Assembly (NCBI RefSeq): GCF_029016285.1
Contig: NZ_CP091976.1
Span: forward strand, 1,612,001-1,676,000
Reading direction: 5' to 3'
DNA length: 64,000 nucleotides
Source of the DNA: Vibrio sp. DW001
GTDB taxonomy: Bacteria; Pseudomonadota; Gammaproteobacteria; Enterobacterales; Vibrionaceae
The position numbers were made by a program, and so were the translations under genes. Positions 24,093-39,674 of this stretch are shown here, one piece after another. Below the pieces are notes generated by a model. It was not told where the DNA came from. It saw only the letters and a program-made list of their open reading frames with translations, and did no database searches. Every line of letters begins with the position of its first letter. Positions within the stretch are counted from its first letter, which is position 1.

Positions 24093-25097
24093 TCAGTTAT
24101 TTTTGCTGGAAACTGAAAATATGGGTCTAAATTCAGAAGGCGAAAGTGAATCTTGTATGACTGTTTTTTTTAATGAACTGGCCGTCAGTGGTTCAATTTG
24201 TGGCGTTTGATTTTGATTGTATGGTTCATCGTTTAGGTAGGCATGTGCTTGCCTAATCGATAATCGTCCCTGTAGCACCATTTTGTCCGTTGAAGAAAAA
24301 AGCACTTTGTTACGCAGCAGGGCTCTGTAGATACCATGGCTAAAATAGATTGAAACAAGCCCAACCTCATCTTCTTTCCCGGCGGCTCTTACCTCGCTTA
24401 TCGCCGCTTCTATTGCGACTGCGCTGCCAACAATATAATCAACGTCTGTTTGCTCAAGAACCTGTTGTACAAGGTTTCGTTGTAGTTCTTTATCGTTATC
24501 TGCCCATAATGTATTGATAATAGAGACATCAGAACCTTTAATTGCGTCGTACATGCCACTATTACTAGGTTTAGTTCCGCCACTCATTTTTGGGCCAGGA
24601 AGCCAAGCAATGTTAACCTTTCCAGAACCCAATGGATGTTTTTTCGCGAGGTACTGACCAGAATTATATCCCATCCAATACCAGTCTACGCCGACAGAAC
24701 CCTTAAATTGAGGTTTATCTTGTTCGCCTACAACGAGCTTATTGACCGTAGAAAATAGTGGGATATTGCCAATGAGCTGTGCTATTTGGTTCATGTACGC
24801 CTGTGGTGCGACGGTGCCTAATATTATTGCATCAGCGCCCCATTCACGGCAACGAATCAACTGCTGCCGTTGCTTATTAACGTTAGGGTATCCACCTGAT
24901 TCAAAAACCTTTAAGTCTATGCCAAAACGTTCGCTTTCGTTTACCATTCCGTAGTTTACAGATAACCAATAGGAGTCTTTTAGGTGCGGATAAATAGCGC
25001 AAATTTTCTCTGTCGCTATAGCAAAACTTGACGTGGTTAGTAAGCCTATCAATAGGCCTATCAGTTTTATAGGTAATTTTCTCAAGCACGACTTCAT
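24093..25097 (-). CDS. torT: TMAO-sensing periplasmic binding protein TorT
   Basis: TorT is a periplasmic type 1 binding protein that binds trimethylamine N-oxide and modulates the TorS kinase. The N-terminal 30 residues form a signal peptide. The body shows KICAIYPHLKDSYWLSVNYG, LGTVAPQAYMNQIA and VGVDWYWMGYNSGQYLAKKHP, all typical of TorT. The 334 residues are close to the E. coli protein (342). It is divergent from torS, with 88 bases between the starts. torR and torCAD are not found nearby. Confidence 0.93.
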   Translation of the reverse strand: MKSCLRKLPIKLIGLLIGLLTTSSFAIATEKICAIYPHLKDSYWLSVNYGMVNESERFGIDLKVFESGGYPNVNKQRQQLIRCREWGADAIILGTVAPQAYMNQIAQLIGNIPLFSTVNKLVVGEQDKPQFKGSVGVDWYWMGYNSGQYLAKKHPLGSGKVNIAWLPGPKMSGGTKPSNSGMYDAIKGSDVSIINTLWADNDKELQRNLVQQVLEQTDVDYIVGSAVAIEAAISEVRAAGKEDEVGLVSIYFSHGIYRALLRNKVLFSSTDKMVLQGRLSIRQAHAYLNDEPYNQNQTPQIEPLTASSLKKTVIQDSLSPSEFRPIFSVSSKNN

Positions 25098-25185
25098 AGA
25101 TAGTGGGATAGGTTATTGATATTCACCTAACAAAATATATCCTATTGCGTATAAGTAAGGAAGTATTCATTTTAAGGCTCAAAAT

Positions 25186-28077
25186 ATGTTATTAGCGTCA
25201 GCCAGTATAGGTAGAAAATTGCTGCTGTCCTTTGCTTCAATGGCAAGTCTGTTAATTTTAGCGGTAGCAATTGGTGCTTCGGGTTTTTCCTTTGTAGCTG
25301 AAACGGAAAAGCAAGTAATTGACTCGTCGGTTCCTGCGATGATTCAGGCAAGAGAAGTGTCAGAACAAAGCTCCAAAATACTGTCGTCTTTAGGGGTGCT
25401 ATCCAACGCTCAAACAGAAAGAGAAAGACAACAGGCTGGGGCACTATTGTTTTCTCAACTAGAAAAGTTATTGGACAAAATTAAGCTTCTTGGCGATAAA
25501 CCATTTGATGTGGCGATATTAGAGCGACTAGAAAGCAAGGTGCAAAATGTTATAGATACAATAGTAGAACTGGGTGTCGTAGTAGAAGAAAAATTACTTT
25601 TAGATCACGTGATTATTTTACAAGTAGAAGAGATGCGTCAACTCGCGGTTGAATTAGAAACCTTAACCCGAACTCAGGTTTTGAATACCAGCACAATAGC
25701 TGTTGCTAATATAACCAATATATATAATCTTATCGAGAGACAAGACAATGAAACGGTCTACAGAGCGCTCGATAATCTGATCGAAGTCGATTTAGACTTA
25801 TCTGAGCGGTTACATGAATTACACCTGCTGGCGTTTCAGATGCTGGCTCACATCGAAGAAGCAAGAGCCGTAACAGACTCCTCGCGCATACAAAAGCTTA
25901 GAGCTGAATTTGAACATAATATCGACATCATTAAACGTCGTATTTTGTCAGTGGAAGACCCTACCCGTTCTAGGCAGATGCAAGTGCTAGTCAGTAAGTT
26001 AGAGCAAAGAAAAGAGGTGTTTGATAATCTAGATTTGCGTTATGAAAACAGGCAAAATGCGGAAAATTTGATGGTTTTAAACCTAACGCAGTTATCAGAG
26101 TTGAATAAAACAGTGAGCTTGTTGGTAGATGAATCAAACAGCGACACAGCGTTGGCGATAAAAGAGTTAGGTGAAACGTTAACTTACGCAAAATGGTCGT
26201 TGATTGTACTTTCTTTGCTTGGATTAGTAGCGGTAAGTTTCATTCTCTGGAATGTCGTGTATCTCTCTGTTGTCAAAAGGTTGCATATCTACTCCGATGC
26301 GATTCGTTCAGTAGCAAATGGTGACTTAGCGTTCGATATTGATGTCAAAGGTAGCGATGAACTGGCGCAAATGGGTAAAGCTATCGTTATTGCTAGAGAT
26401 ACCGCTGAACAGCTTCAAATCGTTGCAGCCAGTGATGCTGTGACCAAAAATGAATTAGAAGAGCATAAAGCACATTTAGAGGAAACTATTACCGAACGAA
26501 CGAAACAGCTTAGAATGGCAAACGAGAAACTCAACCAAGAAGTATTAAAACATAATCAAGCAAGGATCGAAGCGGAGCAAGCAAACCGAGCTAAAACTGC
26601 CTTTCTTTCTACCATGAGTCATGAGATCAGAACCCCAATGAATGGTGTGCTCGGTACTGCAACATTATTGGATGAGACACGTTTAAATATCAAACAAAAA
26701 CAATATGTCGATGTAATTAATCGCAGTGGTAACACCCTGTTGGGCATTCTAAACGATGTGCTTGATTATTCTAAAATTGAAGCGGGTTTTTTGGAAATTC
26801 GCGAAGCACCTTTCAACCTTTCTGCTCTCGTGACCGACGTTTACCAACTTCAGAAGAGTAACGCGACAGAGAAGCAGCTCGGTTTTTCTATGAACGTCGA
26901 CAAAGAAATCAGTGGTTATTGGTTAGGCGACGCGACACGAATTACTCAGGTACTGAATAATCTTGTAAGTAATGCCATAAAATTCACGTCAACAGGGGAC
27001 GTGAGCGTTAACGTCTGTAAGGACTCGCGTCACTTTGGACATATTCTTTTTCGTGTTATCGATGCTGGGGTAGGTATATCGGAAGGCGATAAATCGAAAC
27101 TGTTTGATGCATTTACTCAAGTTGGTAATGCTAAAGCAAAATTAGGTGGAACAGGACTGGGCTTAGCAATTAGTCAAAAAATAGTTACTGCGATGGGAGG
27201 TCTTCTAGAGGTGGGGTCAGAACTCAATCAAGGCAGTGTATTTAGCTTCTCTATCCCACTAGAAGTCTCATTAGAGACAATCAAACCGAAACCAGTAGTA
27301 AAAGAACAAACCAACCTTGTTGCGAAGATCTTATTAGTCGAAGACAACCCTGTTAATTGCCTCGTTGCAGAGGGCTTTCTCACCAATAAGGGCCACCAAG
27401 TGGTTATTGCAGAAAATGGAGCACAAGCAAGAGATCTGTTTAAGAAGCAGCAGTTTGATATTGGCTTGTTAGATATCAATTTACCCGATTGCAATGGTGT
27501 AGAGCTTATGGCTGATCTGCGATTGATAGAGGCCGAAACCCTTAACAACGCGGAGAAACGTATTCCAATGGTTGCCATTTCTGCCCATGTGTTTAGTGAA
27601 GAAGTGCAGGGCTATTTGAAAGCGGGGTTTGATGACTATTTGCCTAAGCCTTTGGATAAAAATAAATTACTTATTCTTGTGCAATCGATTCTAAAAGGGC
27701 GAATACTTCAACGACCACAACCTTCCTTTGAAGTAGAAAAGCATCAAAAGCTGGTGGATTTACATGTATTAGATGAAGATTGCAAAGTTTTGGGTGTAGA
27801 GAAAGTGCTTGAATTAATAAAGCTATTTGAGAACAGCAGTCTAGATATCGTCAAGCAATTAGATCAAGCCGTGATGGAACTAGATCCTGCTTTGGTGAAA
27901 CAATTAGCGCACAAACTAAAGGGCTCTGCGGGTTCTATGGGAATGTATACACTTCATGCTACTTGTCTCGAGGTTGAATCCAATGACTATCCAATTGAAA
28001 CGTATCAAAAACAAAGAGATTCGCTGATCTCAATAATAGAACGGTCAATTAGACTGGTAAAAAAAGCAAGGCAATGA
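25186..28077 (+). CDS. torS: TMAO-responsive hybrid histidine kinase TorS
   Basis: TorS is an inner-membrane tripartite kinase of 963 residues. Helix 1 lies at about 12-34, then a helical periplasmic sensor domain, helix 2 near 335-355, a HAMP domain (about 360-410), H-box with His479 (MSHEIRTPMNG), ATPase with GTGLGLAIS, a receiver domain with Asp763 (LLDINLPD), and an HPt domain with His909 (LAHKLKGSAGSMGM). In the known pathway phosphate goes His-Asp-His to TorR, which turns on torCAD. AAGG before 25186 fits the start. It pairs with divergent torT. Confidence 0.95.
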   Translation: MLLASASIGRKLLLSFASMASLLILAVAIGASGFSFVAETEKQVIDSSVPAMIQAREVSEQSSKILSSLGVLSNAQTERERQQAGALLFSQLEKLLDKIKLLGDKPFDVAILERLESKVQNVIDTIVELGVVVEEKLLLDHVIILQVEEMRQLAVELETLTRTQVLNTSTIAVANITNIYNLIERQDNETVYRALDNLIEVDLDLSERLHELHLLAFQMLAHIEEARAVTDSSRIQKLRAEFEHNIDIIKRRILSVEDPTRSRQMQVLVSKLEQRKEVFDNLDLRYENRQNAENLMVLNLTQLSELNKTVSLLVDESNSDTALAIKELGETLTYAKWSLIVLSLLGLVAVSFILWNVVYLSVVKRLHIYSDAIRSVANGDLAFDIDVKGSDELAQMGKAIVIARDTAEQLQIVAASDAVTKNELEEHKAHLEETITERTKQLRMANEKLNQEVLKHNQARIEAEQANRAKTAFLSTMSHEIRTPMNGVLGTATLLDETRLNIKQKQYVDVINRSGNTLLGILNDVLDYSKIEAGFLEIREAPFNLSALVTDVYQLQKSNATEKQLGFSMNVDKEISGYWLGDATRITQVLNNLVSNAIKFTSTGDVSVNVCKDSRHFGHILFRVIDAGVGISEGDKSKLFDAFTQVGNAKAKLGGTGLGLAISQKIVTAMGGLLEVGSELNQGSVFSFSIPLEVSLETIKPKPVVKEQTNLVAKILLVEDNPVNCLVAEGFLTNKGHQVVIAENGAQARDLFKKQQFDIGLLDINLPDCNGVELMADLRLIEAETLNNAEKRIPMVAISAHVFSEEVQGYLKAGFDDYLPKPLDKNKLLILVQSILKGRILQRPQPSFEVEKHQKLVDLHVLDEDCKVLGVEKVLELIKLFENSSLDIVKQLDQAVMELDPALVKQLAHKLKGSAGSMGMYTLHATCLEVESNDYPIETYQKQRDSLISIIERSIRLVKKARQ

Positions 28078-32379: not shown

Positions 32380-33270
32380 CTATTTACATAGCGTGCATTG
32401 AAATGAATTATTTTCTTCAAAATAATCTAGTATCGGCGTTATTAACACCTCCTCTCCAGCACGCCATCGTGCAATAATTGGGGTGACAAAACCTTCTCGA
32501 CCTAAATTTGATTCAAACTCAACGATATTTTTCCACTTTTCTGCACCTATATGCGTAGGTAAAAATGCCCACCCCATTTTTTCAGATAATGCACATTCCA
32601 ATAACTCTAAATCATTAATAACTTTATTATTTGGGGTGAATATAAATTTCTGATCTTTCGTTTTATTTAGATAAGCTTGTGGCAATATTTGAGTATGGTG
32701 GACGAGCTCGCTTAACATTACATATTGTGAATCAAAAAAATCTTTGTGGGCATAAAATCGATAAGGCATAAACCCAAGAATGCGCCATTCGTTCGTGCTT
32801 AGTTTCTCTTCATTATCATCTGACGGCGCTATTATAAGATCGACAATGTTTTTTTCGAGAAGTTCTAGTGACACGTTAGAACCAATTTTTATAAACTCGA
32901 TCTCCATTTTTTTTGAGTGTGCATATCGAATCAAATTTTTAATCATTTCTTTTGGTACAACGGCATCGTAAGCCATTCGCAATGTGACTTTTGAGGCATC
33001 TGGGCAGACTGTTTTTATTGTGTTTTGCCATGTAAAAATTTGTGCTGTCAATAGAATGGAAGGCTTGAGAATTCTATTCCCTAATGGAGTGAGTTCTATT
33101 TGCCTAGAACTTCTATTAAATAATTTGTGACCTAGTTCAAACTCAAAAGATTCAATATGTTCTGTAATTGTTGCACGGTTTTTATTTAAATGTTTCGCCG
33201 CCGTAGAGATATTTAGATCTTGGGCGACTTGTACAAAGGAAACGAGTTGATTGTAATTAAAGTCCTTCAC
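32380..33270 (-). CDS. LysR-family regulator divergent from reductive dehalogenase
   Basis: A 296-residue LysR-type regulator. The winged HTH covers residues 5-65 (SFVQVAQDLNISTAAKHLNK then RATITEHIESFEFELGHKLF). The effector domain follows with the usual periplasmic-binding-like layout. It begins with GTG at 33270, about nine bases after AAGGA. It reads away from rdhA across a 151-base shared promoter region, so it is the best candidate for controlling rdhAB in response to an organohalide, but this is inferred from position only. Confidence 0.88.
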   Translation of the reverse strand: MKDFNYNQLVSFVQVAQDLNISTAAKHLNKNRATITEHIESFEFELGHKLFNRSSRQIELTPLGNRILKPSILLTAQIFTWQNTIKTVCPDASKVTLRMAYDAVVPKEMIKNLIRYAHSKKMEIEFIKIGSNVSLELLEKNIVDLIIAPSDDNEEKLSTNEWRILGFMPYRFYAHKDFFDSQYVMLSELVHHTQILPQAYLNKTKDQKFIFTPNNKVINDLELLECALSEKMGWAFLPTHIGAEKWKNIVEFESNLGREGFVTPIIARWRAGEEVLITPILDYFEENNSFQCTLCK

Positions 33271-33421: not shown

Positions 33422-34807
33422 ATGTCAAATGAAAACCAGAAAGAAAACGAAAATGAAGTTGAAGACAATTCACGTCGCAATTTTTTTAAATTGGGATTGG
33501 GAGCGGCTGCTATTGCGGGGGTAGGTGTTTCCTCTGCCCACGCGGCAAACAAAATAGAAGGTGTAAGTCATAGCGATTTCCCTGTTCCCATTGATCCTGA
33601 TGTATTGAAACCCATGCCGCAAGAAAACTCGATTTGGACGTTTATTAAATCTCCTTTGTTGGCGGACAAATTTCCGGAAAGAAATCAGAATTTCGAAAAT
33701 GGCTGGAATTTCCAACAGCATGGCTTTAATCCCTTCGTTGGGCTGGATAACTCAAAACCTGGAATGCGACAGCTAGATCTGGCCTTAATGATGTCAGGTT
33801 GGGCGATGGATGATGTATTGGCGCCGGGTTCATCTTCGTTGCAGATCAAATCTGGCGTTTACGGTTGGGAACAACATGGTCTCATGGATCAACAATGGCA
33901 GTTCGAAAGTGCCGAAGATGCAAGCCAGAGCATTAAGTCAGCAGCCAGACTATTAGGGGCAACACGGTGCGGAATTACTCGCAACCATAAGGTGTGGAAT
34001 TGGGACCCGCTTTATGATTCGAAAGAAGGGCGAGAGGTTTCTTGGGATGAGTTTCCGTTTGTGGCAAAAACCGTAATAGTCGTTTTGATTGAGGAAGATT
34101 ACCAAGCAATCGCTACAGCACCTTCTTACGTGTCCGGAGCCGCCGTTGGTATGGGATACTCTCAGATGGCGACAGTAGCCGGGAGTTTAGCGACATTTAT
34201 TCGAGGGTTAGGTTATCAGGCTGTTGGCGCGGGTAACGATTTGGGAAATAGTGTTTCTTATGCCATAGAGGCGGGTTTAGGTGAAGGGGCTCGTAATGGT
34301 CACATGATGGCCCCACGATTTGGCCCTCGTGTTCGAATTGCGAAAGTCTATACCGATCTAGAATTACCTGACGAAGCATATGATAAACCTAAGTCTTTTG
34401 GGATTATGGAGTTCTGTGAGAAATGCAAGTTATGTGCAGAAAAGTGTCCCTCAAAAGCGATCAGTTTAGATGACAAACCGGGGTGGGGACCAACCTATGA
34501 AAATGGCGAAAACCCAGAGTACTCCTGGCACCATCAGAGAGGCGTTAAAAAATTCTATAATGACGCCAAAAAATGCTACAAATATTGGGTAGATAGTGGC
34601 ACTGATTGTGCGATTTGTATGACGGCTTGCCCATGGAATAAACCAGATTTTTGGCACCATAGATTGATTGATGCTTCTAATGCTTATACGGGCGGACCCA
34701 TTCATACCTTCATGAAAGTGATGGATGAGTTATTTGGATACGGAAATGTATTTGATGAACAGGCCGTTATTGATTTTTGGAAAACAGGCAAAGACATTGA
34801 AGTTTAA
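33422..34807 (+). CDS. rdhA: Reductive dehalogenase catalytic subunit RdhA
   Basis: A corrinoid and Fe-S enzyme that removes halogen from organohalides, here with a Tat signal (SRRNFFKLG, Arg18-Arg19) for export to the periplasm. Two 4Fe-4S motifs are present: Cys332-x2-335-x2-338-x3-342-Pro and Cys385-x10-396-x2-399-x3-403-Pro. Tyr246, Asn272 and Arg305 have the same spacing as the catalytic triad I recall for PceA. The 461 residues fit the respiratory-type class (about 460-550), and there is no fused reductase as in NpRdhA. It is followed after 15 bases by the membrane anchor gene. An epoxyqueuosine reductase is excluded by the Tat signal and partner. Halogen substrate unknown. Confidence 0.93.
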   Translation: MSNENQKENENEVEDNSRRNFFKLGLGAAAIAGVGVSSAHAANKIEGVSHSDFPVPIDPDVLKPMPQENSIWTFIKSPLLADKFPERNQNFENGWNFQQHGFNPFVGLDNSKPGMRQLDLALMMSGWAMDDVLAPGSSSLQIKSGVYGWEQHGLMDQQWQFESAEDASQSIKSAARLLGATRCGITRNHKVWNWDPLYDSKEGREVSWDEFPFVAKTVIVVLIEEDYQAIATAPSYVSGAAVGMGYSQMATVAGSLATFIRGLGYQAVGAGNDLGNSVSYAIEAGLGEGARNGHMMAPRFGPRVRIAKVYTDLELPDEAYDKPKSFGIMEFCEKCKLCAEKCPSKAISLDDKPGWGPTYENGENPEYSWHHQRGVKKFYNDAKKCYKYWVDSGTDCAICMTACPWNKPDFWHHRLIDASNAYTGGPIHTFMKVMDELFGYGNVFDEQAVIDFWKTGKDIEV

Positions 34808-34822
34808 TAGGAGCATAAAATT

Positions 34823-35110
34823 ATGATGGCATTAATGTGGTATCTGCTGGGTATGTTCACCGTAACAGCATTTATCGGGTACAGGAAACTTGATCGTTTA
34901 TATAAACTAAATTGGATAGCAAAGCTCGGCATCCTCGCTTCAGCCATCGGTATGTGGTTCTGTATTGCTTGGTCGTGGGCTTCTTTTGTAGAGAGAGAAC
35001 CTCAGTCAGGTGCAATGGGTTTGGTTATGTTTGGTTTTATTTCCATAGTGATTTTTGCTGTTACTTGGAGAACCCAGATAGCACCAAATGAAAAAGCTTC
35101 TTATAAATAA
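34823..35110 (+). CDS. rdhB: Reductive dehalogenase membrane anchor RdhB
   Basis: A 95-residue protein with three predicted membrane helices (residues 5-20, 32-55, 63-82). The loop between helices 2 and 3 reads VEREPQSGAMG, matching the E-x-E loop motif of PceB-type anchors, which tether RdhA to the outer face of the cytoplasmic membrane. AGGAG lies nine bases before the ATG. The position right after rdhA is the standard arrangement. No other function fits as well. Confidence 0.85.
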   Translation: MMALMWYLLGMFTVTAFIGYRKLDRLYKLNWIAKLGILASAIGMWFCIAWSWASFVEREPQSGAMGLVMFGFISIVIFAVTWRTQIAPNEKASYK

Positions 35111-35187: not shown

Positions 35188-35973
35188 ATGACTCATGAAA
35201 AACCATGCGAAGAGCTTTCCGACGCCCAGAACTACTATCTACAGGCAGCGAATCTTCTCAAGGAAATGGAACACAATGATAATGCAGAATTGGCAATAAA
35301 ATACTTAACTAAATCCGCTGATTTAGGGTTAGTTGAAGCGCAGTATCAAATGGGCGTGATGTACTCTCTAGGTGAACATGTTGCTCAAAGCCAATCTATC
35401 GCATTTGATTGGTTTAAGAAAGCCTCGGATTGCGACTTTATTCCCGCTCAATTTGCGATGGCGACGCTTTATTTTCAAAGTGATCAATTTGATAAGGCTT
35501 TTGACATTCTAAATCACCTCGCAGACAAAGAAATAACAGAGGCACAAACAAATCTAGCCGACCTTTATCTGCGAGGGAAAGGAGTCGATAAAGACGTTGT
35601 AAAAGCAATCTTACTTCTTAAGTGTGCCGCCAACAAAGGAGATAGATTCGCGCAATATCGTTTGGGGCAACTCTATTATCAAGGGCAAGATACGGCAACC
35701 GACTATGTAAGCGCTCGAAAATACATAGTATTAGCAATGGAGCAAAAGGTTCTACAAGCCCATTTTATAATGGGGTCTATGTTAGAACATGGTTTTGGAA
35801 TAGACAAAGATGTTGTTCGAGCATATAGCTTATATTGTTATTGCCGACACTATGGAATGCCAAATCTAGATGATTTGATAGAGGACGTATTGGGTACTCT
35901 TGATGATATAAAAAAACAGCAAGCGAAACAAAAGGCTCAGGAGTACTGCGAGCATGAACCTTCCCCTATTTAA
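35188..35973 (+). CDS. Sel1-repeat protein in the rdh operon
   Basis: A 261-residue alpha-solenoid made of about five Sel1-like repeats (for example LGLVEAQYQMGVMYSLGEHV and KGDRFAQYRLGQLYYQGQD). No signal peptide is present, so it should be cytoplasmic. Such repeats bind other proteins. It starts 77 bases after rdhB and overlaps the next regulator gene by 20 bases, which suggests coexpression and possibly a role in sensing or in maturation of RdhA. This protein type is not a standard part of known rdh loci as far as I recall. Confidence 0.75.
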   Translation: MTHEKPCEELSDAQNYYLQAANLLKEMEHNDNAELAIKYLTKSADLGLVEAQYQMGVMYSLGEHVAQSQSIAFDWFKKASDCDFIPAQFAMATLYFQSDQFDKAFDILNHLADKEITEAQTNLADLYLRGKGVDKDVVKAILLLKCAANKGDRFAQYRLGQLYYQGQDTATDYVSARKYIVLAMEQKVLQAHFIMGSMLEHGFGIDKDVVRAYSLYCYCRHYGMPNLDDLIEDVLGTLDDIKKQQAKQKAQEYCEHEPSPI

Positions 35974-36703
35974 TCATAGGCTAGACAATATTTCCGAACA
36001 ACTCTTTGAACAGGAGACACTGGTCAACTTTGATATATGGGGAGGCTTAAAACGCAATGAACGAAGAGGGGATGGGTTGAAAGGGAAAGAGTACAAATAC
36101 ATGACTCTAATGCACTCGAGCAATAATACGTCTTCAAATCGTACTTGGTGCTCACCGCCCGGTTTCCTTAGCAAAAATGACCATAATGTCGAGCGAATAT
36201 TAATGAGTGAGAATCCGATTATTTATAATGTGCCACTCAGGGATTCGGCACATGTAAGGTCGCTTGAGATATCACCTTACGGCTTGGAAACGAAAGAACA
36301 AAGTACATTTACTATATTGGTGCCCATTTGTGACAATATTGAACAGCGTTGGAAAGTCATCCTGTGTTTTAGAATTAAGAACGAGCAAAACCAAAACCCT
36401 CAACTGTTTTTGAAGTGTAATCAAGAACCACTCATTGGTATTGCAAGCAAGATATATAAATTATGGTTAACCTTTGAAGGGAAAGATTTTAATCTGTATA
36501 AAGTGAGAGGTTCATTCTGTGAAAACGCCATCCAAATAGCCAGTTTGATGGTGGAAGGTTTTTCTACAAAACAGATGTCAGAGGCTTTACATATCAGTGG
36601 CTCAGGCATTGAATACCATATTGAATCAATGAGACGAATATTAGGTGCGACGAATAGAGGGAGTTTAATCGCGGAGTTGTTTAGAAATGGCATCGTTTCA
36701 TGA
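35954..36703 (+). CDS. LuxR-type HTH regulator in the rdh operon
   Basis: The C-terminal 60 residues form a LuxR/GerE HTH (IASLMVEGFSTKQMSEALHI then SGIEYHIESMRRILGATNRG). The N-terminal 180 residues look like a sensor domain of alpha/beta type but do not match a named family; the W-Y-D-W-x-P pattern of acyl-homoserine-lactone binders is not apparent. The start lies inside the Sel1 gene with a 20-base overlap, so translation is coupled. It may regulate the rdh genes along with the LysR protein. A strong hairpin follows. Confidence 0.8.
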   Translation: MNLPLFNHRLDNISEQLFEQETLVNFDIWGGLKRNERRGDGLKGKEYKYMTLMHSSNNTSSNRTWCSPPGFLSKNDHNVERILMSENPIIYNVPLRDSAHVRSLEISPYGLETKEQSTFTILVPICDNIEQRWKVILCFRIKNEQNQNPQLFLKCNQEPLIGIASKIYKLWLTFEGKDFNLYKVRGSFCENAIQIASLMVEGFSTKQMSEALHISGSGIEYHIESMRRILGATNRGSLIAELFRNGIVS

Positions 36704-36879: not shown

Positions 36880-38196
36880 TTAAAACAACTCGAATGTAAT
36901 TTGGCCATCTTCCTGCATCGCCTTTAAGTAATTATCTACTTCTTCCTTGTCGACGTATCGCGTAGCGAGTGCGTGTTTGATCACCGTTGAAATTTCTGTT
37001 TTTAGTTCAGGTCTGCCACAAACGTACACTTGTGCGCCATCATCTAGTAACCAAGCAGCTAACTGTTTGTGGTGTTGATTTAACTTATCCTGTACATAAA
37101 TTTTCTGCTTAGAATCTCGAGAAAATGCGGTATCAAGCTGCGTGATGACGTTTTCTGCGACGTATTGTATTAATTCCTGTTGATAGTAGAAATCCTTGTC
37201 AGCGTGCCTATTACCAAATACTAACCAGTTTTTTCCGGAATGAAGCTGCTGCCTTCTCTCCTCCAATAGGCTCATCATAGGTGCGATTCCCGCTCCCGTT
37301 GCAATTAAGATGGCCGGTATATCATCCTCTGGTAATGACATGCCTGCTCCGGGTCTAATCGTTGCTGACAGTTCGTGCCCTATAGGTAGATGTTCGGTTA
37401 AGTAATCTGAGCATAATCCATTTGTAAGTTTTCCATCTAACACAAATTGATGCTTTGTTACGCATAAAGAAATCTGATTAGGGTTTTCGGTAGGGGATGA
37501 TGCGATAGAGTACAATCGCTCTTTAGCACTTCCTGGTGGCATAATGCCTACAAGGTCGTTAATTAAGTAAGGTTGTGTCACGTTGCCCTGAATGTCGAAA
37601 CGTAGCTGAAAAGCGTGATTTTCGTTGTCGGCGTAAGTTGAGGTATGTAAGGGTCTTTTCTCTGCCAAAACTAATTTTATAGGTATGCTAACCGCTTTGG
37701 TTTGGTTAATGTCGATGTCATATTCTAGCTGTTGAGAGAGCCAGTTTTGCCACACTTCCATCGGGTTGCCATTGACCATGACAGGTTCTTCTTCTGTTAC
37801 TAACCCCATACGAAGTAACTCGTTATGGAATAATTTTCCTGCTAGACAATAGTGGGAATAACTTTTGTCTCCAAGAGCCAATAAATCAACAGGTGTATCG
37901 AGATTAGGAAAATCTTTGAGTTGCTCATAAAATAGTATTCCGTCATCAGGGATGTCGCCCTCGCCACAAGTACTTACAATCAATAACACCTGTTTATAGC
38001 GTTTGAAATCGGCAGGTTGTAATGATGAAAGTGACCTGACGTCGGCGGTTCTTCCCAACCTGCGTATAATATCGCCGGATTGAGAAGCCAAATTAGCGGC
38101 GGTTCCCGTTTGGCTAGCATAACAAACGAGGATGTCTTGGTCCTCGTAAACAGGGCTAAAGAGGATGCTCATTAAAGCATGGGTTATTTTGTTCAT
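36880..38196 (-). CDS. Diflavin reductase (flavodoxin plus FAD/NADPH module)
   Basis: A 438-residue protein related to sulphite reductase alpha and cytochrome P450 reductase. A flavodoxin domain holds ILVCYASQTGTAANLA (about 22-37) and STCGEGDIPDDG. The FAD domain has RLYSIASSP, and the NADPH domain has ATGAGIAPMMSLLEERR and VYVCGRPEL. It should pass electrons from NAD(P)H through FAD and FMN. The ATG at 38196 is chosen because the longer frame runs through the small peptide gene at 38213. It follows the NosR-like gene in one operon, which suggests it feeds that membrane protein. It faces the rdh operon. Confidence 0.85.
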   Translation of the reverse strand: MNKITHALMSILFSPVYEDQDILVCYASQTGTAANLASQSGDIIRRLGRTADVRSLSSLQPADFKRYKQVLLIVSTCGEGDIPDDGILFYEQLKDFPNLDTPVDLLALGDKSYSHYCLAGKLFHNELLRMGLVTEEEPVMVNGNPMEVWQNWLSQQLEYDIDINQTKAVSIPIKLVLAEKRPLHTSTYADNENHAFQLRFDIQGNVTQPYLINDLVGIMPPGSAKERLYSIASSPTENPNQISLCVTKHQFVLDGKLTNGLCSDYLTEHLPIGHELSATIRPGAGMSLPEDDIPAILIATGAGIAPMMSLLEERRQQLHSGKNWLVFGNRHADKDFYYQQELIQYVAENVITQLDTAFSRDSKQKIYVQDKLNQHHKQLAAWLLDDGAQVYVCGRPELKTEISTVIKHALATRYVDKEEVDNYLKAMQEDGQITFELF

Positions 38197-38212
38197 ATTA
38201 ACGGCCAATCGC

Positions 38213-38344
38213 TCAAGTATAGTTCCTAATAAACGAGTCAAAAAGGAATGCAATGATAATCGCGCTGGTAACGAACAATAGCGCTGTAGAAGCCCATTGA
38301 GGTCCTTTGGTTCTTGTCTTGGGATGCAAAATTGGTTTACTCAT
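38213..38344 (-). CDS. 43-residue single-helix membrane peptide
   Basis: A short gene lies between the NosR-like and flavoprotein genes. Its ATG (38344) overlaps the NosR-like stop in ATGAGTAA. It encodes a basic N-terminus (MSKPILHPKTRTKGPQW), one membrane helix (about residues 18-36, ASTALLFVTSAIIIAFLF), and a short tail. Its stop is 16 bases before the flavoprotein ATG. The tight packing supports a real gene that could help dock the reductase to the membrane. I know of no family for it. Confidence 0.6.
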   Translation of the reverse strand: MSKPILHPKTRTKGPQWASTALLFVTSAIIIAFLFDSFIRNYT

Positions 38345-39674
38345 CTCTTTGTTCTCGTCCTGTATGAGGGCAATCATATAACCTTTTGATTGCCTTACGT
38401 TTTATGAATCTTTTGATTTGGTAAACAAGGTTATTTCTTAAATTAACTAGTAAGGTTAGCATCTCTCCTGCAGGGCAGAAAAAACGACAAAACATGTCAG
38501 GGATAAAGAAGCACCCAACGATAACAGCAGGCATTATGAACCACTGAATACCATCACCTTGCAACGAAAATATCATCGAGAATGGTTCATATGCACCTGC
38601 ACTAGGGTTTACGGTAACGAGACCAATCACTAAAGCGGCCCATAAGCCTACCTTCGGTATATAGCGACCATACTTCAGAACAATAGGCAGAATGGGGAAG
38701 TTAAGATTGCCAATTTTTTGTAATAGAAATTGGATAGCATGGAATGGGCAGATATGACCACAATAGATATTTCTTCCTAGAAGGATAACTGCGACGAAGA
38801 CGCTCCCGAATAGAATCCAGAAACCGAGATTTTCACTGAGTGCGGGTACAAAACCTAACAATAACCCAGAGAAGTTAGCTACATTGAGTAGCTGATTGGT
38901 CATAAAGCCAATGACGATAATGCTACCCAAAATGTAAGTGAGTTTTAGCTTCTTACTGCCTATCCAAATATTGATGACTGACAGCGTAATGAGTAATGTA
39001 ATTAAAACGTGATTAAGAGTGAGGTCGATTTCTTTTTGTAATGGTTTAGGGGATAAGGAAAAACTCAGTTTTGCGATGGTATGTGATGCCCTAGTATTGG
39101 CACGCATAATCGCGTTGGAGCTGAGGGTTGCCCCACTGACCGCATCCCAGTTTTTACCAGCAATGGGTAAATAATCGACAGGTTTTCGTTGGAACTGTCG
39201 TAAATATCCTGCATTTAAAAGCTTTTGGATATACGCAGGAGTGTCACTGTGGTTTAACAACTCTACTGTTTTGATTCTACCTTTTTTGGTAATGATAGAC
39301 GCCAACGTTAGTGGTCCTCCGTAACTGTTATCCGTCGCGACAGACACATAATATTCCCCGCCATTGTGGTTCATCGAAAATAGTACTTCGCTACCGTTTA
39401 TGGCTGAAATATTGGCGTTAGGATGCAGTCCTTGAATATCACTTTTCCAATCAGGCCGGTTATGCTCTTGACCCCAATACCAAGCAAAGATGAGTGTAAT
39501 GAACGCGAGTAATCGAAACACCTTTCCATAATCTAGGCGCCATTTAATCGAGGATGTTGCCTTACTTTTACGACACGATTGCGATGAACAATCCTTACAA
39601 TTCACGATAATGGCCCCTGAAAATAATAACGAAAATACAGTTGTTACTATCCACTTATGGCGAAATCGTGTCAC
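38337..39674 (-). CDS. NosR/RdhC-like FMN-binding, 4Fe-4S membrane protein
   Basis: A 445-residue inner-membrane protein. It has an N-terminal helix, then cysteines CKDC-x4-C (26, 29, 34). The external FMN-binding domain at about 70-200 contains SGATLSSNA, where Thr183 fits covalent FMN attachment. Four or more helices follow, then two polyferredoxin motifs CGHICP (Cys305, 309) and CRFFCP (Cys396, 400). This is the layout of NosR, NirI and RdhC (PceC), which link the quinone or flavin pool to periplasmic reductases. The start is a GTG at 39674 with no clear ribosome site. It heads an operon with the peptide and flavoprotein genes. Confidence 0.85.
   Translation of the reverse strand: MTRFRHKWIVTTVFSLLFSGAIIVNCKDCSSQSCRKSKATSSIKWRLDYGKVFRLLAFITLIFAWYWGQEHNRPDWKSDIQGLHPNANISAINGSEVLFSMNHNGGEYYVSVATDNSYGGPLTLASIITKKGRIKTVELLNHSDTPAYIQKLLNAGYLRQFQRKPVDYLPIAGKNWDAVSGATLSSNAIMRANTRASHTIAKLSFSLSPKPLQKEIDLTLNHVLITLLITLSVINIWIGSKKLKLTYILGSIIVIGFMTNQLLNVANFSGLLLGFVPALSENLGFWILFGSVFVAVILLGRNIYCGHICPFHAIQFLLQKIGNLNFPILPIVLKYGRYIPKVGLWAALVIGLVTVNPSAGAYEPFSMIFSLQGDGIQWFIMPAVIVGCFFIPDMFCRFFCPAGEMLTLLVNLRNNLVYQIKRFIKRKAIKRLYDCPHTGREQRDE

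Follow-up and report, generated by a model that had tools for sequence, protein, structure and literature searches.

A 64,000-nucleotide stretch of the Vibrio sp. DW001 genome (assembly GCF_029016285.1, contig NZ_CP091976.1, positions 1,612,001 to 1,676,000; hereafter the window) carries rdhA and rdhB, which very probably encode an exported corrinoid reductive dehalogenase and its membrane anchor. We found that a cassette of three further genes, rdhC, a small open reading frame (ORF) and fldRed, lies 2 kb downstream of rdhAB on the minus strand (36880–39605), where a preliminary description of this DNA had missed it. We propose that electrons would pass from NADPH to the diflavin reductase FldRed, then to the membrane flavoprotein RdhC, and from there to RdhA, and we put the probability of this route at roughly 50%. 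We infer every electron step, and the role of the small protein, from the identity, order and co-occurrence of the genes together with motifs and predicted folds. The genes concerned are as follows (aa, amino acids; Tat, twin-arginine translocation; FMN, flavin mononucleotide; FAD, flavin adenine dinucleotide).

33422..34807, plus strand: rdhA, corrinoid/2x[4Fe-4S] reductive dehalogenase of 461 aa, predicted to be Tat-exported, with arginines 18-19 and the triad Y246/N272/R305.
34823..35110, plus strand: rdhB, 95-aa membrane anchor with three hydrophobic segments and an E57xE59 loop.
36880..38199, minus strand: fldRed, compact diflavin reductase of 439 aa with flavodoxin and FAD/NADP domains; start set by alignment to protein P0121.
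38213..38344, minus strand: small ORF of 43 aa between rdhC and fldRed, with one strongly hydrophobic 19-residue segment.
38337..39605, minus strand: rdhC, NosR/PceC-like membrane flavoprotein with the FMN motif SGATLS, two CX3CP motifs and an N-terminal CxxC...C.

In the proposed route, RdhA, with its corrinoid and two [4Fe-4S] clusters, would be anchored by RdhB on the outside of the cytoplasmic membrane and would dehalogenate an organohalide, drawing its electrons at least partly from cytosolic NADPH. The reaction may conserve energy, detoxify the organohalide or dispose of electrons. FldRed would take hydride from NADPH onto FAD and hand single electrons via FMN to RdhC, and the small one-helix protein may help to dock FldRed at the membrane. 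RdhC would carry the electrons across the membrane, possibly via its N-terminal cysteines and the CX3CP motifs, to an exported covalent FMN, and from there they would reach the iron-sulfur clusters and the cobalt of RdhA. The neighbourhood suggests that electrons arrive by such an NADPH route, either in place of one from quinol or in addition to it.

The case for an NADPH donor begins with FldRed. In an alignment of 22 rows, which included one CysJ (P0202) as an outgroup, the S, K, Y and Q of the SRD..KIYVQ motif carried by the window protein were invariant and the R was found in at least 90% of rows; S-x-T-G and R-L-Y-S (RxYS, the FAD motif) were also invariant. We take the SRD..KIYVQ residues to be the site of the NADPH 2'-phosphate. 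FldRed is predicted from these residues to work like an NADPH-dependent diflavin reductase, and its cofactor preference is likewise a prediction. CysJ, the flavoprotein of NADPH sulfite reductase, has the same flavodoxin plus FAD/NADP module. However, FldRed scored 247.7 bits on the curated CysJ model TIGR01931, far below the cut-off of 668.15, and in the alignment it lacked the connecting domain of CysJ while keeping the FMN-, FAD- and NADP-side residues. It also formed a group of its own: a protein search returned 27 clusters at 328 bits or more and then dropped to 233 bits. The idea that fldRed is an ordinary cysJ was rejected because it missed the CysJ cut-off and because a separate, more distant diflavin match (G000:C1, 36% identity) lies elsewhere in the same genome.

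The partner of FldRed, RdhC, has FMN_bind and Fer4_5 domains (Pfam). Its GTG start was inferred from an alignment, and the longest ORF runs from 38337 to 39674; in the numbering of that ORF, SGATLS occupies residues 180–185, CGHICP 305–310 and CRFFCP 396–401. The protein has the properties by which RdhC (PceC) is defined in PMC5928378, namely an FMN motif, two CX3CP motifs and multiple helices without C-terminal ferredoxin motifs. The same paper shows an outward-facing PceC domain with covalently bound FMN, and menaquinol is proposed there as the donor. In a structure model of RdhC (predicted local distance difference test score, pLDDT, 78.3; predicted template modelling score 0.72), a helix at 49–71 is followed by the FMN domain and then by the remaining helices, and the PceC family likewise has its FMN domain after the first helix. 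Residues 1–45, which hold the extra cysteines, were modelled with low confidence. Because helix 49–71 separates them from the FMN domain, as in PceC, an FMN domain outside the membrane would place the N-terminal CxxC...C on its cytosolic side.

These extra cysteines, together with the downstream small ORF and fldRed, distinguish the window RdhC from the wider RdhC/PceC family. The N-terminal CxxC...C was present in 17 of 19 rows of the cassette-type family, the two exceptions beginning further downstream, as opposed to neither of two RdhCs of the other type. A search with RdhC gave 24 clusters at 369 bits or more, followed by 258, and 17 of the 24 were paired with an FldRed cluster when exactly equal sizes of the clusters' longest contigs were used as a proxy for the same contig. 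The order rdhC, small ORF, fldRed held in all five loci read (window, L068, L067, L118 and L079).

In the window, the ATG of the small ORF overlaps the rdhC stop. Every small ORF in the five loci has one hydrophobic stretch of 19 residues, with a mean hydropathy of 2.3 to 3.0. Those of the window, L067 and L118 outscored all 500 shuffles when compared with each other; the L079 version was clear only against L067, shuffles doing as well in 3 of 500 cases against the window and 35 of 500 against L118. Between the window and L068, the 55 codons of the longer frame showed nine non-synonymous and four synonymous changes; thus, the overall rates do not show purifying selection. None of the nine non-synonymous changes fell in residues 27–50, which cover the hydrophobic stretch.

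We surveyed 329 Vibrionaceae genomes, the window's own (G000) included, for RdhA over its model cut-off and for FldRed at E ≤ 1e-40. RdhA was found in 33 genomes and FldRed in five (G000, G260, G272, G288 and G034), and all five also had RdhA. By chance, five out of five would be expected with a probability of 7.6e-6, which becomes 8.5e-5 when the sisters G000 and G260 are merged; both values are uncorrected for kinship. Physical linkage was also seen: rdhA, rdhC and fldRed lie within 9 kb or less in the window, L067, L068 and L079, and in L079 (G034) rdhA, rdhB, a TPR gene, rdhC, the small ORF and fldRed all lie on one strand. In the window, rdhC is about 3 kb from rdhB.

An RdhA tree of 58 rows placed one RdhA each of G000, G260, G272 and G288 in the clade of the window protein (10 rows, support 100/99). 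The RdhA of G034 (L079) and a second RdhA of G288 (L084), both flagged as long branches, formed another clade (100/99) far from it. RdhAs that have a cassette close by occur in two separate, well-supported clades. At another locus (L077, 3042–8613), the genes downstream of rdhA, rdhB and rdhC on their strand encode a 1190-aa pyruvate:flavodoxin/ferredoxin oxidoreductase and a flavodoxin, so that a cytosolic low-potential donor of another type adjoins the rdh set; in L073 the start of a similar oxidoreductase gene was seen by eye, ended by the contig edge. Together, the cassette and the L077-type neighbourhoods suggest that low-potential electrons from the cytosol enter by way of RdhC.

The preliminary description had claimed an intact rdhAB, and the frames of 461 and 95 aa are indeed open. 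RdhA has the traits of a respiratory-type RdhA. It scored 204.4 bits on the reductive dehalogenase model TIGR02486, whose curated cut-off is 160.35. Among solved structures it matched 8q4h (E 3.4e-64), PceA (4uqu, E 2.3e-43) and NpRdhA (4ras, E 2.4e-21), and its own structure model (pLDDT 85.7) has the fold of solved reductive dehalogenases. Sequence alignment with PceA was ungapped over residues 212–314 of both proteins; therefore Tyr246, Asn272 and Arg305 carry identical numbers in the two, which agrees with the spacing given in the preliminary description. The two 4Fe-4S motifs that it mentioned were also confirmed (C332-x2-C335-x2-C338-x3-C342-P and C385-x10-C396-x2-C399-x3-C403-P). In an alignment of the window RdhA with 70 relatives, the triad and all eight cluster cysteines were invariant in 71 of 71 rows.

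A second alignment comprised 52 RdhAs taken from loci, copies of the same genes included. The eight cysteines were again invariant, arginine occupied both twin-arginine positions (window R18-R19) in every row, and Tyr and Arg were present in all 52, whereas Asn was present in 42; the first six of the ten exceptions, those listed, are of the RdhA2 type. Export of RdhA is thus predicted, and the twin arginine of the reported Tat motif stands. Calling that motif perfect was a slight overstatement, since the window has SRRNFFK, with Phe where the consensus has Leu. RdhB was borne out as a small three-helix protein directly after rdhA: its hydrophobic segments span residues 1–19, 31–49 and 63–81, and the ExE loop with its conserved glutamates is E57-R-E59. 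Scans of curated Pfam and NCBIfam models gave no match for RdhB.

Comparison with known systems showed where the window set is familiar and where it differs. The nearest solved relative and best structural match is 8q4h, titled a menaquinol:organohalide oxidoreductase complex, with 36% identity in the structural alignment; what the window has in addition is a neighbouring rdhC and a gene for an NADPH-type diflavin reductase. The PceA of Sulfurospirillum multivorans (4uqu and ligand complexes) shares the triad numbers and both cluster motifs, at about 30% identity in the structural alignment, but its Thr242, which lines the pocket, is Val in the window protein, so the substrate of the window RdhA cannot be read off from PceA.

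With the self-sufficient catabolic enzymes of the NpRdhA/JtRdhA type, the window RdhA has the corrinoid and iron-sulfur clusters in common. In PMC10463259, NADPH drives dehalogenation by a catabolic RdhA that has a reductase domain of its own; NADPH as the ultimate donor is shown there for that type and is proposed here for the window RdhA. In that type RdhA is soluble and the reductase is fused or supplied, whereas the window has an RdhA with a Tat signal and a separate, signal-less reductase that would depend on RdhC for a route across the membrane. The window arrangement would combine the NADPH source of the catabolic enzymes with export.

The rdhC-fldRed pair was also found outside Vibrionaceae. 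Endozoicomonads carry it (P0141/P0258 and P0142/P0253), as does a Ferrimonas. In favour of a link to RdhA, the contig-size proxy places four RdhA clusters, among the 120 listed of 871, on a contig with an RdhC cluster, and three of these also with an FldRed cluster; a fifth size equality (2540 bases, FldRed alone, different sources) is probably due to chance. When P0142 was searched against 369 genomes of the class, three had a match, the window's own at 49% identity and two of one other family at 38–39%, the latter in frames of 774–778 aa. A published 16S primer pattern for endozoicomonads gave no matches in 80 genomes with one mismatch allowed or in 80 more with two; the pattern covered 159 of the 369 genomes plus that of L005, and an endozoicomonad may sit among the rest or have no assembled 16S. 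A search with P0146 in 14 genomes of the genus of L005 (Ferrimonas) gave five distant matches in longer frames, at 33–35%. No relative was found on viral contigs. Plasmids yielded FldRed-like proteins of at most 31% identity among the best 15 of 173, named, where a name was given, sulfite reductase or PepSY, and two distant RdhA records. In a word search of the main text of two endozoicomonad genome papers, 'dehalogen' and 'halogen' were absent.

Several of our results weigh against the NADPH route. FldRed was absent from 28 of the 33 RdhA-bearing Vibrionaceae, and in the window the cassette and rdhAB lie on different strands. In G272 (L118, 4390–8237), rdhC-fldRed is on another contig than rdhA and adjoins genes that by eye are TonB/ExbB/ExbD-like, neighbours that may hint at a link with uptake of substrate or corrinoid. 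None of the four endozoicomonad pair proteins had a contig match among the 120 listed of 871 RdhA clusters, and the pair may therefore serve a different function in these bacteria. The missing endozoicomonad RdhA is weak evidence, because the list is blind to distant RdhAs and also misses the contig of P0145/P0263, which we took as that of G034, where rdhA is beside the pair. Moreover, because 8q4h is titled as a menaquinol:organohalide oxidoreductase, RdhAB alone may take quinol electrons.

This last point leads to an alternative in which RdhAB works like 8q4h, with quinol electrons arriving via RdhB, and the cassette is either accessory, for example in reactivation of RdhA, or unrelated. We regard that alternative as possible, though on the unlikely side; it leaves unexplained both the restriction of the cassette to RdhA-bearing genomes among the Vibrionaceae surveyed and the same-strand run in L079. 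An improbable alternative is that the cassette supplies NADPH electrons to the periplasm in general, for another exported enzyme, and is near rdhA through shared ecology or island structure. The unlinked pair of G272 would fit such a role, as would the endozoicomonads and Ferrimonas (sp. SCSIO 43195), whose contig was likewise unmatched among the 120 listed of 871. Against this, all five Vibrionaceae with FldRed have RdhA, and RdhC belongs to a known dehalogenase partner family (PMC5928378).

It is very improbable that RdhA is no dehalogenase in its host, whether through lack of expression, decay or drift to another reductive reaction. The Pfam scan of RdhA returned ferredoxin models only, and PF13486, the model that PMC6511854 names, was not among the matches. 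A vibrio rdhA can also break, as at L078 (9180–10611, in G108), where the gene extends over two overlapping frames and looks broken; G108 also has an rdhA2-type copy (L082). However, the frame in the window is intact and its product is 99% identical to the RdhA of Vibrio sp. VB16, and the invariant triad and cysteines and the modelled fold also argue against this explanation. 

The preliminary description was partly upheld. Neither of the two outcomes that it named as refuting was obtained: the Tyr/Asn/Arg triad aligns with that at the corrinoid pocket of PceA, and the genome has a source of B12. The respiratory role and the organobromine substrate that it envisaged are candidates, and the novelty of the find is weaker than it stated. 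We rejected the notion that finding rdhA in a vibrio is a surprise as such, given its presence in 33 of 329 genomes and relatives that carry a reductive dehalogenase annotation in Vibrio sp. VB16 (99% identity) and in RC586 and V. vulnificus (49–50%). PMC5928378 counts 16 Vibrio RdhC sequences and lists others from Photobacterium and Ferrimonas. The window rdhAB adds one more example to a set that was already known.

The source of B12 is the genome itself, which comprises 5.46 Mb in two contigs and holds cbi/cob genes in two clusters; CbiC and CobS each occur twice. Of ten proteins scanned from the cluster near the second rdhA, eight exceeded curated cobalamin cut-offs (CbiD, CbiL, CbiH, CbiF, CobA, CbiB, CbiP and CbiA), while CbiK-like and CbiG matches were below theirs; MetH was found once over its cut-off and a BtuB-like receptor below the curated one. 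De novo cobalamin synthesis is predicted for the host from these matches. The possibility that the host has no B12 source was therefore rejected, and with the cbi/cob genes in two clusters plus MetH this objection is removed. The two clusters suggest that the genome carries the pathway twice, as follows.

L063 and L064 (G000:C2:1335001-1375000): second rdh cluster, in which cbi/cob genes are accompanied by an rdhC-type gene, TPR, a 545-aa RdhA, RdhB and AraC.
L065 and L066 (G000:C2:1145001-1185000): second cobalamin cluster, beside a PocR-domain regulator.

In the second rdh cluster the rdhC-type gene is on the other strand, followed by the cbi/cob genes and then TPR-rdhA-rdhB-AraC; the aligned Asn272 position of the 545-aa RdhA is not Asn. 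A transposase-like ORF, IS110-like by eye, lies just downstream (L064, 8455–9471). Genes that by eye resemble deoxysugar catabolism adjoin the PocR-side cobalamin cluster. In L067 and L071 the rdhA block adjoins a cob cluster. Across the survey, CbiC was found in 49 of 329 genomes, nine of them with RdhA. With two marginal CbiC genomes (G046 and G056) dropped, CbiC was present in 9 of 33 RdhA genomes versus 38 of 296 without RdhA (Fisher p = 0.035, uncorrected for kinship), which makes B12 synthesis a weak marker of RdhA genomes.

Three further genes flank rdhAB in the window (HTH, helix-turn-helix), and each is kept in L067, L068 and L071.

32380..33270, minus strand: LysR-family regulator gene, divergent from rdhA and beside it in those loci also.
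35188..35973, plus strand: Sel1-repeat protein gene, downstream of rdhB there as here.
35954..36703, plus strand: LuxR-type HTH protein gene.

A relative of the LuxR-type gene comes after rdhAB in L084. Near the rdh island (24093–28077) lie a gene for a TorS-type hybrid sensor kinase (TorS_sensor_domain) and one whose product, judged by eye, is a TorT-like periplasmic protein. A contractile-tailed prophage occupies 42710–64000, with matches to tail fibre, baseplate, tape measure, sheath, major head, portal and terminase proteins, and its G+C content is about 47%, versus about 40% outside.

According to PMC7031245, menaquinol has a potential of −75 mV and the Co(II)/Co(I) couple one of about −360 mV, and it is not clear which proteins overcome this barrier; PMC5928378 calls the function of RdhC elusive. 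Tentatively, and with less assurance than for the route itself, we suggest that a dedicated NADPH line avoids this uphill menaquinol step, that relatives have swapped in pyruvate:flavodoxin oxidoreductase and flavodoxin, and that the cassette is shared with sponge- and ascidian-associated Endozoicomonadaceae. If the route is true, a gene-encoded NADPH donor tied to RdhC would make the path of electrons to RdhA directly testable in a marine bacterium that should be facultative and fast-growing and that has genes for making B12 itself. If the cassette works alike in sponge symbionts, it would bear on natural organobromine turnover.
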